Shown here: in pieces, positions 1-32,329 of the stretch
How the letters are laid out: each line of letters opens with the position of its first letter
Position numbering within the stretch: the stretch's first letter is position 1
Origin: Verrucomicrobiota bacterium
Lineage (GTDB): Bacteria > Verrucomicrobiota > Verrucomicrobiia > Opitutales > Opitutaceae
Assembly (NCBI GenBank): GCA_016209255.1
Contig: JACQWL010000226.1
Span: forward strand, 1 to 32,329
Direction of reading: 5' to 3'
Length of the DNA stretch: 32,329 nucleotides
Position numbers and translations under genes: made by a program
The notes under the pieces: generated by a model
What the model saw: only the letters and a program-made list of their open reading frames with translations
What the model was told of the DNA's origin: nothing
The model's database searches: none

Positions 1-81
1 GTAGAGCGTAAGCACGGGCGCGGGCAGGGTGGCGGAGCCGACCGCTGCCGGCAGGCCGCGTCCGACCGCGCTCAGCAGAAT

Positions 82-2916
82 CTAGCGCGGCGGCGCACCG
101 GCGCACACCACGCCGGCGATTTGGGGCGGACCGCCGGGCTCCACGCGGCTGCGGGCCGAGAAGTTGATCAGACGCGACCGGTTGGGGGCGACCGTGAGTG
201 TCGCGGGCTCGCTCGTGAAGGTCTGGCCGGCGATGGTCACGATGGCGCGATAGACGCCGGCCTGGTCGACCCGAACGGCCGGCAGCCGCAGCATCGCAGC
301 CGTCGCGCCCGCCAGCGTGGCACCGTCACGCGTCCACCGATACACGGCTGGCTGGGTCGTTCCAATCGCGACCTGAAAAAACGCATCGCGGCCGGCCACG
401 ACCGTCTGGCTGCGCGGGCCGGCGGTGATGCCGGCGACTTCCGTGGGCGCGAAGCGGGCGAGGGCAGAGCGCGGCTGTCCGTTGACCCGATCGAACGCGC
501 CGCCGAGCCACAGCCGGCCGTCCCCCGCGAGCAGGGCGGTCGCGGCGTAGCCGTTGCTTGACCCCTGGCGCAGTTGCGGCGCGAGATTCAGATCCGGCCA
601 GCCTTCGGCGTTGTAACGGCGCCCGTTCGAGAAAAATGATCCATCAGCGAGCCGGCGCGCGCCGCTCGCAATGGTTTCGGGCGGCGGCTGAAACGCCGGA
701 TCGACGGAGCCGTCGGCGCGCAGGCGGAGCACGCCGGCCTGCCAGCGGCCGCGCGTGATCGCGCTGCCGAAAACAAAAGCGCGGCCGTCCGGCAGGGGCA
801 GCGCGGCGTTCGGATAGTGGAGGGTGGCGAGATCGGGCGCGTAGGCGGCATCAGGTTTCCCGTCATCCAGCAGGCGCACCAGACCGGGACGCGCCTCGCC
901 GTCGACGCGCGAAAACGCACCCGCGACGAGCAGGCGGCCGCCGGCGAGGGGTTGCACGGCGTCGATGACATTCGGGCGGCCACCGCCGATCGGAATCGGC
1001 ATGACGACGTCGGCGGGAAGCGCCGCACCGGTGGCGTCCATCGGCAGGATGATGAAGCGAGTGAAGCGGGTGAACACCGTGGACAGCGTGGTGAGGCGCT
1101 GCCCGTCGGCGCCCAGCCAGATGAGTTTCAGGTTTTCTTCGCGATTGCTGTCGGGTTCGAACGCGGAGACGAGAATGCGGCCGTCGGGCATCGCCGCGTG
1201 CCAGTTGGTATTGATCGCTTCGAGCTTGGCGGGAAAGGCGAAGCTGGGGTCGACGCGGCCGTCGAGCTGCAGGCGCACGATTTGCGCGACGTAGCGGTGA
1301 AAGCCGTCTTCGAGGGCGGGACCGACCGTCATCTGCCGGACAATCATCCGACCGTCGGGCGGGGCGAAGAGCAGTTCGCCGGCGGAGGGCGCATACGCCG
1401 GATCGAGCGCACCGCTGGCGAGGAATCGCGCCAGTCCGGCGCGCGGCTGGCCATCGATGTGCGTAAACGTGCCCGCGGCAATCACACGTCCGGTGGAGTC
1501 GGTTTCGAGGCGGTTCACGGTGCCCGTGTAACGGTGGGTGATCGTCGTGCCGAATGGCGTGAGAGCGCCCGCGTCCGCTGAACTTATGGCGAGCGTCGGA
1601 TCGACCAACGTCGGACCAAGAAAAATTGGCGCGATGGCCGCGTCGGCGGGTGCCGTGGCGTCGAAGGGAATTCGGTAGAACGACGAGTTGAGCACGAGGG
1701 TGCCCTGGACCACGAGCACGCGGCCGTCGGCGAAAGCGGCGAGCAGCCGGTGACCTTCGCGGGCGCCGGGCACGCGGCGCAGATCGCGCTCGAGCTGGCC
1801 GTTGACGCCGAGGGTGAAGACGGCGGGCGCGCCCAGGGCGTTCGCCGCGCCGACGGTCGCTTCGACGGCGAGCCGGCCGGACGGGAGCGGTGCGATGCGC
1901 GAGATGGACTTGAGTCCCGGAATCTGGATCGCGTAGGTGCGGTCGGGCACGCCCGCCGGGGTGTAGCGCGTGAGATTGCCGTTGCCCGCGAGCACGCTGC
2001 CGTCGGGCTGCACCGCAAGCAGTGAATAGCTTGTGCCGGTTGTGGGGGGAGCGAAGCGCGCGTCGATGGCGCCGCTGGCGAGGAGACGCGTGAAGAAATA
2101 CGTCGTGCGCCCGAGAGGCTCGTACGCCACCGCGCTGACCACCAGCGAGCCGTCGGCCGCGGCGGCGACGGCGCTCACGTTGAGCGATGCCGATGAGAGC
2201 GCGGGCGCGAAAGTGGCGTCGAGCGTGCCGTCGGCGTTGAGCCGCGCGAGGCCGTTGCGCGCCTGTCCGCCGATCGCGCGAAACGCGCCCCAGACGAGCA
2301 CCCGGCCGTCCGGCAGCCGCGCAACTCGCGGGTAACCGTCAATGGGAAGCGCGGCGAACGCAGCGTCCTTGCGCCCGTCGGAGCGCAGCCGGATGAACTT
2401 CGCAACCGGAACGACGGGACGTACGACGACCCCCGAGCCGTCCGGTTCACCCGGCGACGTGATGACGGCGGGATCCACGGGGTCGACCGGCACCAGGGGA
2501 AATGGCGGTTCGATTTGCGGCGGGGTGACAACGGCAAAGCCGACGCTTGACCCGATCAGCGCGACGACGCGGCCGTCGGGCAGCGGCGCAACGTCAGTCA
2601 CACGCTCGTCAGCGGAGAGGTCGGAGGCGAACGCCGCATCGGCGGTTCCATCAACCCCGAGCCGGGCGAGGCCGGGGGCGGTGGAGCCGTTGACGTGGGT
2701 GAAGTTGCCGTGGGCGAGGGTCTGTCCGCCCGTCGCGGCCACATACGAGGCGATGAGCAACATCGGGGCGTCGTTGACGATCGCGGGCGCAACGACCGGA
2801 TCGAGCAACCACGCCTGTGCGTGGAGAACGGCCGGCGTCGCGGCGGCGATCAGGCAGAAAGCGGCGCACGACGTGCGCCGAATGGCGCTCAAAATCTGCA
2901 TGGCAAACTGCAACAT
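82..2916 (-). CDS. Delta-60 repeat (DUF5122-like beta-propeller) surface protein with C-terminal Ig-like domain; in-frame TAG at 82-84, homologous reading frame continues to window edge
   Basis: Repeated 'LARLNADGTLDATFAP / PDGRVLVWGAF' motifs; signal peptide-like N-terminus from ATG at 2916 (MLQFAMQILSAIRR...) or 2901; Ig-like segment 'ITAGPRSQTVVAGRDAFFQVA..YRWTRDGATLAGAT'. Longer ORF start at 3129 overlaps the upstream regulator and is unlikely. Confidence 0.85.
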   Translation of the reverse strand: MLQFAMQILSAIRRTSCAAFCLIAAATPAVLHAQAWLLDPVVAPAIVNDAPMLLIASYVAATGGQTLAHGNFTHVNGSTAPGLARLGVDGTADAAFASDLSADERVTDVAPLPDGRVVALIGSSVGFAVVTPPQIEPPFPLVPVDPVDPAVITSPGEPDGSGVVVRPVVPVAKFIRLRSDGRKDAAFAALPIDGYPRVARLPDGRVLVWGAFRAIGGQARNGLARLNADGTLDATFAPALSSASLNVSAVAAAADGSLVVSAVAYEPLGRTTYFFTRLLASGAIDARFAPPTTGTSYSLLAVQPDGSVLAGNGNLTRYTPAGVPDRTYAIQIPGLKSISRIAPLPSGRLAVEATVGAANALGAPAVFTLGVNGQLERDLRRVPGAREGHRLLAAFADGRVLVVQGTLVLNSSFYRIPFDATAPADAAIAPIFLGPTLVDPTLAISSADAGALTPFGTTITHRYTGTVNRLETDSTGRVIAAGTFTHIDGQPRAGLARFLASGALDPAYAPSAGELLFAPPDGRMIVRQMTVGPALEDGFHRYVAQIVRLQLDGRVDPSFAFPAKLEAINTNWHAAMPDGRILVSAFEPDSNREENLKLIWLGADGQRLTTLSTVFTRFTRFIILPMDATGAALPADVVMPIPIGGGRPNVIDAVQPLAGGRLLVAGAFSRVDGEARPGLVRLLDDGKPDAAYAPDLATLHYPNAALPLPDGRAFVFGSAITRGRWQAGVLRLRADGSVDPAFQPPPETIASGARRLADGSFFSNGRRYNAEGWPDLNLAPQLRQGSSNGYAATALLAGDGRLWLGGAFDRVNGQPRSALARFAPTEVAGITAGPRSQTVVAGRDAFFQVAIGTTQPAVYRWTRDGATLAGATAAMLRLPAVRVDQAGVYRAIVTIAGQTFTSEPATLTVAPNRSRLINFSARSRVEPGGPPQIAGVVCAGAPPR

Positions 2917-2987
2917 AATCGCGACAGCGCCCCAACGCAATGGCCTAGTCGGCGGGACGTCCGGCCCGCAGCGGTTGCACACCGCCC

Positions 2988-3644
2988 TCAGCGCCGCTGG
3001 TCCTGCGCGTAGATCACCGCCGCCTCGGCCCGGCGGGAGACGTGAAGTTTCTCGAAGATGGTGCTGAGGTAATTCTTCACCGTCTTCTCGCTCAGCCCGA
3101 GTTTTGCGCCCGCCTCCTTGTTCGTGCACCCGTCGGCGATCAACGCGAGCACCCGCCGCTCCTGGGGCGAAAGCGAGCCAAGCGGGTCGCGCCCGCTGCC
3201 CGTGGCCTTCAGCAGCTGCATCACCCGCGCAGTGACGGCGGGATCGAGAATGGATTTGCCCGCGGCAACATCGCGAATCGCCTGAATCAGCCCGCGGCCA
3301 TCGATCTCCTTCAGCAAGTAGCCTTGCGCGCCGGCACTAATCGCCTCGGCCACCATCGCATCATCGACCGCGGAGGTGAGAATCAAGACGCGGGTCTCGG
3401 GCACGCGTTTCAAAATCTGCCGGCACGCCTCGAACCCGGTGCCGTCGGGCAGCCGGATGTCGAGCAGCGTCACGTCGGGGCGCAGCCGAACGCAGGCTTC
3501 GACCCCGGTGGCGACGTTCGCGGCCTCGGCCACGACTTGGAGCGCTGGCTCCGTGCCGAGCAGGGCGCGGAGACCCATGCGCACGACCTCGCTGTCGTCG
3601 ATGATCGCGACGGTGATCCGGGGTTTTTCCTCGTCCGTCGTCAC
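2988..3644 (-). CDS. NarL/LuxR-family two-component response regulator
   Basis: Receiver domain (VAIIDDSEVVRMGL, VTLLDIRLPDGTG) and LuxR HTH (LSPQERRVLALIADGCTNKEAGAKLGLSEKTVKNYLSTIFEKL). GTG start overlaps upstream kinase stop. Confidence 0.93.
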   Translation of the reverse strand: MTTDEEKPRITVAIIDDSEVVRMGLRALLGTEPALQVVAEAANVATGVEACVRLRPDVTLLDIRLPDGTGFEACRQILKRVPETRVLILTSAVDDAMVAEAISAGAQGYLLKEIDGRGLIQAIRDVAAGKSILDPAVTARVMQLLKATGSGRDPLGSLSPQERRVLALIADGCTNKEAGAKLGLSEKTVKNYLSTIFEKLHVSRRAEAAVIYAQDQRR

Positions 3645-4786: not shown

Positions 4787-6316
4787 ATGAAGTCCTTCTA
4801 CATCACGACCGCCATCGACTATGTGAACGGTTCGCCCCACCTGGGCCACGCCTATGAAAAGGTGCTGACCGACGTCATCGCCCGGTTCCGGCGGCAGATG
4901 GGAGATCGGGTGAATTTCCTCACCGGCACGGACGAGCACGGGCAAAAGGTGCAGGCGAGCGCGCGCGAGCGGGGCATCGAGCCGCAGCAATACGTCGATG
5001 AGATCGCCGCGGAGTTTCGCGCGCTTTATGACCGGCTCGAGGTGTCCTACGACGATTTCATCCGCACGACCGAGCCGCGGCACAAGCAGGTTGTCCGGGA
5101 CTTCCTGCAGCGCCTCTACGATGCGGGCGAAATCTACCAGGCCGAATACCACGGGTTTTACAGCACGCGGCAGGAGCAATTCCTGCAGGAAAAGGATCGG
5201 CTGCCCGATGGCTCGTGGCCGGAGATCTTCGGCGAGGTCACGGAGATCGTAGAGCCGAATTACTTCTTCCGGCTGCGCAAGCACCAGGACTGGCTGGTCG
5301 ACTACCTGCACACGCACGAGGACTTTATTTTTCCGCGCTACCGGCAGAAGCAGGTGCTCGAGTTCCTGAAGGAGCCGTTGAACGATCTCTGCATCTCGCG
5401 GCCGAAGGAGCGGCTGGAATGGGGCATCCCGCTGCCGTTCGACGAAAACTACGTGACGTACGTCTGGTTCGATGCGCTGCTCAACTACTACTCCGGCGTC
5501 GTCGACAAGGGGCTCTGGCCGGCCGACTACAACGTCATCGGCAAGGACATTCTGGTGCCGCCGCACGCGGTTTACTGGCCGATCATGCTCCACGCGTCGG
5601 GCCTGCCGCCGCCAAAGGCGCTGCTCGTGCACGGGTGGTGGCTGCAAAGCGGCGCCAAGATGTCGAAAAGCACCGGTGAGACGGTCAACCCGCTCGAACT
5701 CATCGAGCGATTCGGGGTCGATGCCTTCCGCTATTTTCTCATTCGCGAGATGAACGTCGGGCAGGACAGCGAGTTCACCGTCGAGCAGTTCTTCGTCCGT
5801 TACAACAGCGAGCTCGCCAACAATCTCGGCAACCTCGTCAACCGCGCGCTCAACATGACGACGCGCTTCGCCGCCGGCGTCCTGCCCGCCGCCGGGGCGA
5901 TCGAGGATTACGAACGCGAACTGCATGACCTCTGGCCGAAGACATGCGATGAGGTCATCGCGCTGTGCGAGGGATTTCAGTTTCACACCGCCCTGGAGCG
6001 TACGATCGGTTTCGTGACCGCGACCAACGCCTACATCGAGAAGCGCGCACCGTGGAAGCTGGGCAAATCGATCGCGGCGACGGATCAGGAGCGGCTGCGC
6101 ACGGCCCTCGCCACGATTGCCGAGGCGTTGCGGCTCGCGGTCGCGCTGCTGCAGCACGTCATGCCCGCGACCACGGCAAAAATCAACGAAGTGCTCGGTT
6201 ATGTGCCGGGTCCGGACTGGCGCCGTGAACTGGATTGGGGCACGAAGTTGAACGGCGCGAAGGTCGCGGCGGCCCTGGTGCTGTTCCCGCGGCCGCAGCC
6301 GCCGAAGGCGGCGTAA
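4787..6316 (+). CDS. metG: Methionyl-tRNA synthetase (short form)
   Basis: MKSFYITTAIDYVNGSPHLGHAYEKVLTD (HIGH-like), KMSKSTGETVNP (KMSKS). Start chosen inside the longer 3764-6316 ORF. Confidence 0.96.
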   Translation: MKSFYITTAIDYVNGSPHLGHAYEKVLTDVIARFRRQMGDRVNFLTGTDEHGQKVQASARERGIEPQQYVDEIAAEFRALYDRLEVSYDDFIRTTEPRHKQVVRDFLQRLYDAGEIYQAEYHGFYSTRQEQFLQEKDRLPDGSWPEIFGEVTEIVEPNYFFRLRKHQDWLVDYLHTHEDFIFPRYRQKQVLEFLKEPLNDLCISRPKERLEWGIPLPFDENYVTYVWFDALLNYYSGVVDKGLWPADYNVIGKDILVPPHAVYWPIMLHASGLPPPKALLVHGWWLQSGAKMSKSTGETVNPLELIERFGVDAFRYFLIREMNVGQDSEFTVEQFFVRYNSELANNLGNLVNRALNMTTRFAAGVLPAAGAIEDYERELHDLWPKTCDEVIALCEGFQFHTALERTIGFVTATNAYIEKRAPWKLGKSIAATDQERLRTALATIAEALRLAVALLQHVMPATTAKINEVLGYVPGPDWRRELDWGTKLNGAKVAAALVLFPRPQPPKAA

Positions 6317-6417
6317 TCTTTCTCTTTCCTCCTTCTCTTAATCCCTGGTCGCCTTTGGCGCCGCCGAAGGCGGGTAAACTTTCTCCTGTTCCGACCAACC
6401 TGACGAAAGAGAAAGAT
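6316..6417. repeat. 13-bp perfect inverted repeat of pyrimidine/purine tracts bracketing the metG-menF spacer
   Basis: ATCTTTCTCTTTC (6316-6328) and GAAAGAGAAAGAT (6405-6417). Confidence 0.7.
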
Positions 6418-6441
6418 AAAGAGGAAAGACGAAAGATTCTC

Positions 6442-11767: not shown

Positions 11768-13333
11768 CTATTCCAGGCGCCAGATTCCGATGTTGCCGGC
11801 GGCAGCGATTTTCTTCCACGCACCCGGGCACCGCTTCCGGATCGCGTCCTCCTCCTCAATATCGAAAAGCGCGGCGTAAATCGGCCGGCCTGCCTTGCGC
11901 GCCAGCGCCTCATACCGGGCAAACTCCGCCGGCTCGACCGAGTCGAACAGCAGCGTGGGCAAATCGGTGTAGTAGTAAATCGACCCACTGACGTTGCAGC
12001 TCAAGATGAGGGCATTGGGGGGAACACGCTCCCGCACCAGCCGCGCCGCCTCCGCGTAGGCGCGCTCGTATCCCGGCACGTACAAGGCGTGCAGGCTTCG
12101 GGTCCAATACCAGGAGTTGCCCAGCGCCCACAGCGTGAAAACGAGCGCGACGACGGGACGAAAGGCCCGCGGCCAGCGCGCACCCGGGCCCCGTGCCATC
12201 GCCTCCACGCCAAGGAGCGCTCCGAGAATCAACGCGGGCAGCGCCGGCAGGATGTAGCGGAGGTACGTCCAGTCGTCGTGCGAATAAGCGCAGAAAAGAT
12301 AAAGCCCGACGATGGCAACGGTCACGAGGCCCAGCCCGAGCAGCTCGCGGCCACGGGTCCGGCGGTCCGCGAGCGCCGCCAACGGCAACGCCAGCACCAC
12401 CGGCGGCAGAAACAGCGCGAGCCATTTCGCGAAATGGAGCGCCGTCGGCGCGCCGTATTCGAGCGCGAAGTCGGTGAAGATGTCTCCGTAGCCGGAGCGC
12501 AACGCGCCGCCGTAAAGGTAATGATTGTAAAGTCCGAGCCAGAGGGCGCCAGGAACTCCGCCGAGGATGAAGCACCCGAGCCGCCGCACGTCGAATCCCA
12601 GCACCACGACCAGCGCGGGCGCGAGCAGCGCATTCGTTGGGCGCACGAGTACGGCGATCGCCAGCGCGGCGCCGCACGCCACCGCCCAGCGATGCGACGC
12701 ACGGCCACGCAGCGCAAAGAACAGCGCGGCCAGCGCCCACGTCGTCGCCAGCGTGTCGCTCAGGGTCTGAACCGACGCGTAAATGAAAACCGGGAAAACG
12801 GCCAGCATCGCGGCGGCCGCCCCGGCCAGCCCGAAATGCAGGCCCAGCGCGCGTGCCGTCCGGTAACACAGCCACACCGCCGCCACCGCGGCGAGCAATT
12901 GCACGACAAACGGCCCGATCTGCCAGCCCAGCAGCCGGCCGCCCAATGCGAGGTGCAGGGGAAATCCGGACGGATACGCCGGCGCCAGGTCCCGATGACC
13001 GGAGAAGCTGCAGAAACCCGCCGGCGAGAAATGGCTCCGTTTCAATTCAAGCCCGGCGAACTCGCTCGGAACGCGCAGTGCGGCGCGGACTTTGCCCGCC
13101 GCAAACAGCCGCGCGCTGTTGAGATATCCGGAGGAATCGGACCCACCCGCGACCGCGCTCATGTTCGCCGCCAAAAACATGGTGTACCCAGCCAGCGCGG
13201 CCAGGGCCAGCCGCACGAACCAGCGCGGCGCCGGCGGACGCGTCGGCGCGCTCGCGCCGGCTTCGGCCGGCCCCGGCGCCTTGACGGGGGGGAAAGGCGA
13301 TTCCCCGGCGAAGGGCGGGTCGGGTGGTGACAT
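11768..13333 (-). CDS. Multi-TM GT39/ArnT-PMT-like glycosyltransferase (paralog B)
   Basis: Polytopic; GGSDSSGYLNSARL, YPSGFPLHLALGG, VLVRPTN, RYILPALPALILGALLGVEA; strongly similar to 15401-16942. Confidence 0.8.
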   Translation of the reverse strand: MSPPDPPFAGESPFPPVKAPGPAEAGASAPTRPPAPRWFVRLALAALAGYTMFLAANMSAVAGGSDSSGYLNSARLFAAGKVRAALRVPSEFAGLELKRSHFSPAGFCSFSGHRDLAPAYPSGFPLHLALGGRLLGWQIGPFVVQLLAAVAAVWLCYRTARALGLHFGLAGAAAAMLAVFPVFIYASVQTLSDTLATTWALAALFFALRGRASHRWAVACGAALAIAVLVRPTNALLAPALVVVLGFDVRRLGCFILGGVPGALWLGLYNHYLYGGALRSGYGDIFTDFALEYGAPTALHFAKWLALFLPPVVLALPLAALADRRTRGRELLGLGLVTVAIVGLYLFCAYSHDDWTYLRYILPALPALILGALLGVEAMARGPGARWPRAFRPVVALVFTLWALGNSWYWTRSLHALYVPGYERAYAEAARLVRERVPPNALILSCNVSGSIYYYTDLPTLLFDSVEPAEFARYEALARKAGRPIYAALFDIEEEDAIRKRCPGAWKKIAAAGNIGIWRLE

Positions 13334-18816: not shown

Positions 18817-18908
18817 TTCCCGGGGAGCTTGATTTCGCGATCGAGCGCCGCGTCTCCGTAAAGCATTCCCGGGAGCACAAGCTCCGAGGCATTTGGGCAA
18901 GCCGCACC

Positions 18909-18959
18909 TTGTAGCCGGGGTCGGCGACCCCGGACCGGCCTCAACGAGGCCGGCTACAA
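18909..18959. repeat. REPIN/BIME-like inverted doublet of GTAG-headed palindromes
   Basis: TTGTAGCC...GGCTACAA ends; hairpin CCGGGGTC-GGC-GACCCCGG (18915-18933) and hairpin CCGGCCTC-AAC-GAGGCCGG (18935-18953); sits between convergent genes. Confidence 0.85.
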
Positions 18960-19028
18960 CCAAACCGAAGCAAGCGTCGGAGTATCGGATCCAAAGTGAA
19001 TGAAATACCCGGGCCGGCATCCAAACGG

Positions 19029-23456: not shown

Positions 23457-23539
23457 CATGGCGCCCGCAAGGGTTTTCTCACTGATTACGCCAGCAGCTT
23501 GGGGTCAAGCCGCTCCACCCTTCATTGCATCGTTACGGC

Positions 23540-24775
23540 TCAGCCGCCACCGCCGGGGCGGCGATTCTGGATCCCACCGGTGGTGGTGCCGCCGCCAGGT
23601 GGGCCTCGACCGCGATCGCCGGGCGCCGGCTGGCCGGCGGACATGGTTTCCCGGATCAATTGCTGGAGCTGCTGCTGGCTCTGCTGTTGCTGCTGAATCT
23701 GCTGTAAAGCGCTGAGCTGGGATGGCGCGAGAATCGTTTGCGCCTGGGCGATGGCGGCACTCGTGACTGGCGCGGTGGCGCCTCCGCGGCCTCCATCCAT
23801 CACGGGCGTCACAAAATTGCCGCCGGGCCCGCCGCCGCCGCCGAAGGCCGCCACGATTGCACCTCCAATGTCGCCGCCGCGGCCGACAAAAACGGCGGCG
23901 TCGCCATAACCGCCGCCCCCGAAACCGCCGCCCGGTCCGCGACCGCCCGGTGGGGGCGGCGGGCCGCCGGCGGCAACCGGGTTGTTGGGCACACGTTGTG
24001 GCGCGTTCGCCGCGAGAATTTGCACCAGCTGCTCGGCCTGCGCCGATGTGAGCGGCGTATTCGTGTGGCTCAGACGCTGCTGCAGGTCGGTGACCAGGTT
24101 CCGCTGCGGGAGCGTCTGCTCGTAATTCTGAAGTTGCGAGAATCCGGCGTCGCCCAAGACGGACTTGATCCCGTTGTTGACCACGTTCTGGGCATCGCTG
24201 ATGAGTTTGCGGAAGCCGGCCGGATCCGTGCGCGGATCCACGCCCTGGTCGAAGGCCGCGGACAAGACATCCTGAACGGTGGTCTGCCGCTCGATGAGCA
24301 GGTTCTTCAGTTTGTCGAGCTGTTCAGGCGGAAGATTGAGATTCCGGAAGAGCGATGCGTAGCGGGCCTCGATCGCGGCCTTCTGTTGCACGCTCACCAG
24401 AGCCTGCACCTCGGGCTTGGCCATCAGGTCGCGGATGGCAGTCATTTGCTGCAAGCCATCGCCGGGTCCCCGCCCGCCACGACCCCGCCCGCCACGGCCA
24501 TCCTCAGAGGCGGGAGGCCGGTCGGCGCTGGCCGCGGCCAACACGGCTTCGGTCGCTTCGGTTCTTTCGCCCCGCAATGTCGCGAGCTGGTCCTGCAACT
24601 CGCGGTTGAGTTTCTCCAAACTCCACACGCGCTTCTGCAGGTCGGCACGTTCGTCCTTGTTCATCGCCCCGGCGCGCAGTTCGACGAGCTCCTGATATTG
24701 GCGCCATGCGACCGCCATCCCGCCGACGGTGGCAAGCGTGAGGAGGGCAATGAGGTAGCTCTTGGCGGAATTCAC
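23540..24775 (-). CDS. Membrane-anchored coiled-coil protein with Gly-rich and Gln-rich low-complexity C-terminus
   Basis: N-terminal TM (YLIALLTLATVGGMAVAW), coiled coil (LQKRVWSLEKLNRELQDQLATLRGE), G-rich tracts, 'IQQQQQSQQQLQQLI'. Confidence 0.75.
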   Translation of the reverse strand: MNSAKSYLIALLTLATVGGMAVAWRQYQELVELRAGAMNKDERADLQKRVWSLEKLNRELQDQLATLRGERTEATEAVLAAASADRPPASEDGRGGRGRGGRGPGDGLQQMTAIRDLMAKPEVQALVSVQQKAAIEARYASLFRNLNLPPEQLDKLKNLLIERQTTVQDVLSAAFDQGVDPRTDPAGFRKLISDAQNVVNNGIKSVLGDAGFSQLQNYEQTLPQRNLVTDLQQRLSHTNTPLTSAQAEQLVQILAANAPQRVPNNPVAAGGPPPPPGGRGPGGGFGGGGYGDAAVFVGRGGDIGGAIVAAFGGGGGPGGNFVTPVMDGGRGGATAPVTSAAIAQAQTILAPSQLSALQQIQQQQQSQQQLQQLIRETMSAGQPAPGDRGRGPPGGGTTTGGIQNRRPGGGG

Positions 24776-32174: not shown

Positions 32175-32279
32175 GCGGCAGCAGAGGTGTGAGACCGAAC
32201 GTAACGGGGGCGCCTGTTGGCGGGAGCACTCTTTCACCTGCGAATATTCAGTCGGCCGCAACCTGGAGAGTAAAGAGAC

Positions 32280-32329
32280 GATTACCAACAGGTGGGCCGG
32301 CGACCTCCTGTCTTCGCCCTGCGGGCTAC
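32280..32329 (-). repeat. GTAG-headed REP-like element at window edge (possibly truncated)
   Basis: Reverse strand begins GTAGCCCGCAGGGCGAAGACAGGAGGTCGCCGGCCCACCTG; GCCC-GCA-GGGC stem and CAGGaGG/CCaCCTG stem. Confidence 0.4.

Follow-up and report, generated by a model that had tools for sequence, protein, structure and literature searches.

An in-frame TAG at the contig edge of a delta-60-repeat protein gene in an Opitutales assembly: most likely an assembly-edge or strain difference

The gene and its interrupted frame

The window analysed here (the whole stretch of 32,329 nucleotides) is the entire contig C119, so that the window edge is also the contig end. It belongs to an Opitutales assembly of 647 contigs and 6.78 Mb, estimated to be 85% complete. 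At its left edge, on the minus strand (positions 82 to 2916), is a gene that encodes a TAG-truncated, secreted delta-60-repeat (DUF5122) protein. The start given in the open reading frame list is a GTG at 3129; since this codon falls within the adjoining response-regulator gene, an ATG at 2916 or 2901 is preferred as the likely start. Six stretches of the product match Pfam DUF5122 (PF17164; E 4.9e-53, 177.5 bits for a cut-off of 27) and TIGR02608 gives 114.3 bits (cut-off 76.5), which places the protein in the delta-60-repeat family. In addition, an Ig-like domain is matched weakly. Our literature search found no paper naming the delta-60 repeat.

The reading frame ends at an in-frame TAG (positions 82 to 84, read from 84 to 82 on the minus strand), as an earlier note on this DNA had claimed. 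The same note held that the frame continues open up to the edge. Indeed, the 27 codons that follow the TAG (positions 1 to 81), cut by the contig end, read ILLSAVGRGLPAAVGSATLPAPVLTLY and agree with its letters exactly. Openness alone is uninformative, as 68% of all 81-nt frames are open in this window of 66% GC. The remainder of the reading frame in the window contains no further lesion.

The window also carries several dispersed repeats. One lies at 6315-6438 and contains a unit of about 42 nt (6339-6380) that recurs, for the most part with 91-98% identity, on over 25 further contigs. Further families occur at 18858-19005, at 23488-23543 and at 32246-32329, the last of which, with more than 20 copies, makes up the right end of the contig, as well as at 2845-3003 of the locus that holds contig C564 (L003). 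A region at 12344-13270, which covers a multi-pass membrane glycosyltransferase-like gene, has a paralogous or strain copy on contig C499 (81% DNA identity).

The C-terminal domain on both sides of the TAG

The relationship of the two sides of the TAG was assessed with a profile HMM built from 58 homologous copies, from which both contigs' versions of the own-genome copy (C119 and C564) were excluded. The window sequence read through the TAG scores 72.1 bits, and its equivalent on the overlapping contig C564 scores 75.1 bits. Of the two parts, the one before the TAG reaches 38.2 bits by itself. The one after it reaches 24.4 bits (E 1e-6), whereas the highest score among 1000 shuffles of this latter part is 8.8 and that among 1071 other open 27-mers of the window is 5.8. 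Because its score far exceeds both controls, the stretch beyond the TAG is the true rest of the domain. One feature of the domain is missing from the window copy: the near-invariant Arg of the xLLRxVGxGL motif, which C564 and 55 of 56 homologues have, is replaced by Ser (AGC, positions 70 to 72, minus strand).

When the tandem domain of a relative is modelled with AlphaFold2 (mean pLDDT 86), the TAG site corresponds to residue 35, where the third strand begins in the first domain of a tandem beta-sandwich. The truncated product would thus probably end in a stub unable to fold. In the corresponding column, relatives have P, R, N, T, S or Q. The earlier note had described a conserved C-terminal domain pattern from Verrucomicrobiota secreted proteins, with the TAG truncating it in mid-motif at a variable position; the profile identifies this same domain on both sides of the stop, and the model and the column agree with the rest of that description.

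This domain of about 130 residues, here called RAVGP, occurs as a tandem pair in Opitutales delta-60 proteins, for example at L003:190-1014 (on C564) and at L066:5190-6044. It has no Pfam or NCBIfam model and gave no significant PDB sequence match. A query containing it found 86 matches in the genome itself and dozens in most congeners. The intact window protein shares with other Opitutales DUF5122/delta-60 proteins (TIGR02608, PF17164) a signal peptide, DUF5122 repeats, an Ig-like domain and two C-terminal RAVGP copies; the window copy differs in stopping within the first C-terminal domain, whereas C564 does not. In its intact form the protein is probably secreted and located at the surface, and would consist of a signal peptide, a DUF5122 beta-propeller, an Ig-like domain and two jelly-roll-like domains. 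In Foldseek comparisons, one model domain of about 146 columns matched Tk-SP (9ues/3afg) with a probability of 1.00 and an rmsd of 3.7. The model also matched the ColG tandem (5iku) with a probability of 1.00 and a poor overall rmsd of 18.1, perhaps owing to a different orientation of the two domains. The predicted fold thus resembles jelly-roll domains found in secreted proteases and in proteins that bind collagen (the pre-peptidase/collagen-binding domains ColG s3a/s3b and the Tk-SP C-terminal domain), with an identity of just 11-13%, and this likeness is offered as a lead, not as a test.

Among the 86 own-genome matches, an internal stop is found in the window copy alone, and across 57 genomes (this one and its relatives) no other stop occurs among the matches listed. 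The named relatives used for comparison are Opitutae and Verrucomicrobia MAGs, several of them groundwater-derived. In a tblastn survey of the fetched loci, all aligned stretches but one were free of stops, and nearly all cover both domain copies. The exception, at L023, contains a stop and yet is stop-free over its match in the genome search; this stop is taken to be the natural end of that reading frame. None of the homologues compared ends at the TAG site, and truncated homologues were accordingly rejected as an explanation on the basis of both surveys. The earlier note had named natural ends of homologues at this position, or a continuation unlike the domain, as grounds for its refutation; neither applies.

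The overlap with a second contig

The rest of the gene, together with an intact version of the interrupted part, occurs in the same assembly on contig C564, which overlaps the edge of C119 over 375 bp at 94.7% identity. At the TAG site C564 has ACG (Thr), and its frame then stays open for 240 more residues, finishing the first domain and adding a complete second copy before a stop at 1015-1017. Joined, C119 and C564 encode a protein of about 1185 residues, compared with 1143, 1192 and 1233 residues for orthologues. Synteny in relatives speaks neither for nor against the adjacency of the two contigs, as the genes beside the orthologues differ.

The two contigs are exactly identical over 95 bases at the start of C564 (window positions 281 to 375), which would mark a branch point of the assembly, and then differ along a variant tip (positions 1 to 280) by 20 bases in 18 codons, 14 of which are synonymous. 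The distribution of these differences is uneven. Within the overlap, codons 32-88 include 10 that differ, every one of them silently, and the 88 codons that precede the edge stretch show no amino-acid change at all; these silent differences mark a strain divergence that is real and under selection. Among the final 37 codons, by contrast, 8 differ and 4 of these are nonsynonymous (Fisher exact p ~0.02 relative to codons 32-88, our own calculation). The four are the stop, the Arg-to-Ser change, a Val at 109-111 and an Ala at 19-21 (window residues), and both the Val and the Ala occur in relatives. The two harmful-looking differences, the stop and the Ser, which follows it 12 bases further on, both lie within the last 84 nt. 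Three of the differences are C-to-A (at window positions 83, 72 and 61), one of them silent, and TAG is separated from ACG by two adjacent base changes.

Contigs C190 and C248 were considered as a second example of strain overlap and rejected: both (loci L078 and L080) carry tRNA-His genes with nearby repeats that hold a copied piece of the tRNA end, adjoining a GCCTTCGC-type inverted repeat, and are thus cases of local repeats around tRNA genes and not a strain duplicate. Elsewhere in the genome, six low-scoring tRNA genes (Glu, Gly, Pro, Val, Asn and Pro) lie within 6 kb at L103 (G000:C49:11000-18000), possibly as part of a mobile element or prophage.

The origin of the TAG

The overlap fits a strain-variant contig end, in that a contig of the same assembly covers the edge with small and mostly silent differences. 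De Bruijn assemblers break at branch points, and alternative paths may stem from single or few variant reads (PMC10914622). The present case resembles such metagenome contig ends in its 95 exact bases followed by divergence and in the meeting of the contigs within one gene; it differs in that the overlap length matches no common assembler k-mer that we can name. We consider, with a probability of about 0.52, that the TAG is a difference in a short variant assembly tip with local sequence errors at the contig edge. C119 and C564 would represent the same gene, on which the assembly graph branched through strain variation; the TAG would be confined to the tip of about 280 nt where C119 breaks off in this fragmented metagenome assembly. 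The edge of C119 may have been extended from few reads, its last 84 bases or so holding errors (the TAG, the Arg-to-Ser change and a further C-to-A difference), and the cell itself probably carries an intact gene, at the length of the joined protein. That the stop, the lost Arg and the C-to-A changes crowd together at the extreme end of the contig argues for errors in a tip with thin support. Against this, the Val and Ala shared with relatives indicate that the tip is largely a real allele, in which case the stop may be real too, and the extension of C119 through the tip rather than through C564 suggests that the tip had some coverage.

The main and close rival, which we hold to be possible at less than even odds, is that the nonsense allele is genuine and recent and belongs to one of two strains that were assembled together, with the two C-terminal domains lost there and kept in the strain represented by C564. 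As this requires, the divergence of the contigs at silent sites reflects real strain differences, and the relatives' Val and Ala speak for it in the same way; moreover, the variable TAG column would allow a one-base route to the stop, from TCG for instance, and the Arg-to-Ser change would suit relaxed constraint. However, the harmful differences bunch at the contig edge after 88 codons that contain no amino-acid change, and the rest of the frame bears no other lesion. That a strain truly carrying the TAG makes a shortened, released surface protein without the C-terminal domains, as phase- or strain-level variation, is very unlikely.

We also regard as unlikely a reading in which C564 is not another strain's allele and one genome carries the gene twice in nearly identical form, C564 being one copy and the window copy a duplicate in decay. 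Tandem copies of the gene do exist in relatives (two adjacent genes in L064 and two in L066), but these are only about half identical, as against 94.7% here, and the assembly yielded no upstream half of another copy.

That the TAG is read through or recoded in a programmed way has next to no probability. The conserved domain does continue in frame, but the stop is peculiar to one of the 86 genome matches and absent from the relatives' matches listed. The genome has release factor 1 (RF1), none of its tRNAs that were found reads TAG, and within the window TAG serves as the normal terminator of kup and topA. Moreover, C564 has a sense codon at the site, and the window copy has lost the conserved Arg beyond the TAG. 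A missing RF1 as the cause of readthrough is rejected by its presence, and the ARAGORN-recognised tRNAs among 38 tRNA matches in this genome (about 85% complete) all have sense anticodons; no suppressor tRNA, RF1 loss or stop conserved in homologues was thus found. Of the three causes offered in the earlier note, readthrough is not supported, while nonsense mutation and sequence error both stand.

The main value of these results is as a caution. Before an in-frame stop that lies no more than about 100 bases from the end of a contig is interpreted as a sign of a pseudogene or of recoding, it should be compared with any contigs of that assembly that overlap the edge; in the present case this comparison yields an intact continuation at once. 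The domain cut by the TAG is itself numerous in this genome and genus, yet stands outside the Pfam and NCBIfam models. Whether error or allele, the TAG is an ordinary contig-edge variant, and in all likelihood it reflects a difference at the edge of an assembly or between strains and not new stop-codon biology.
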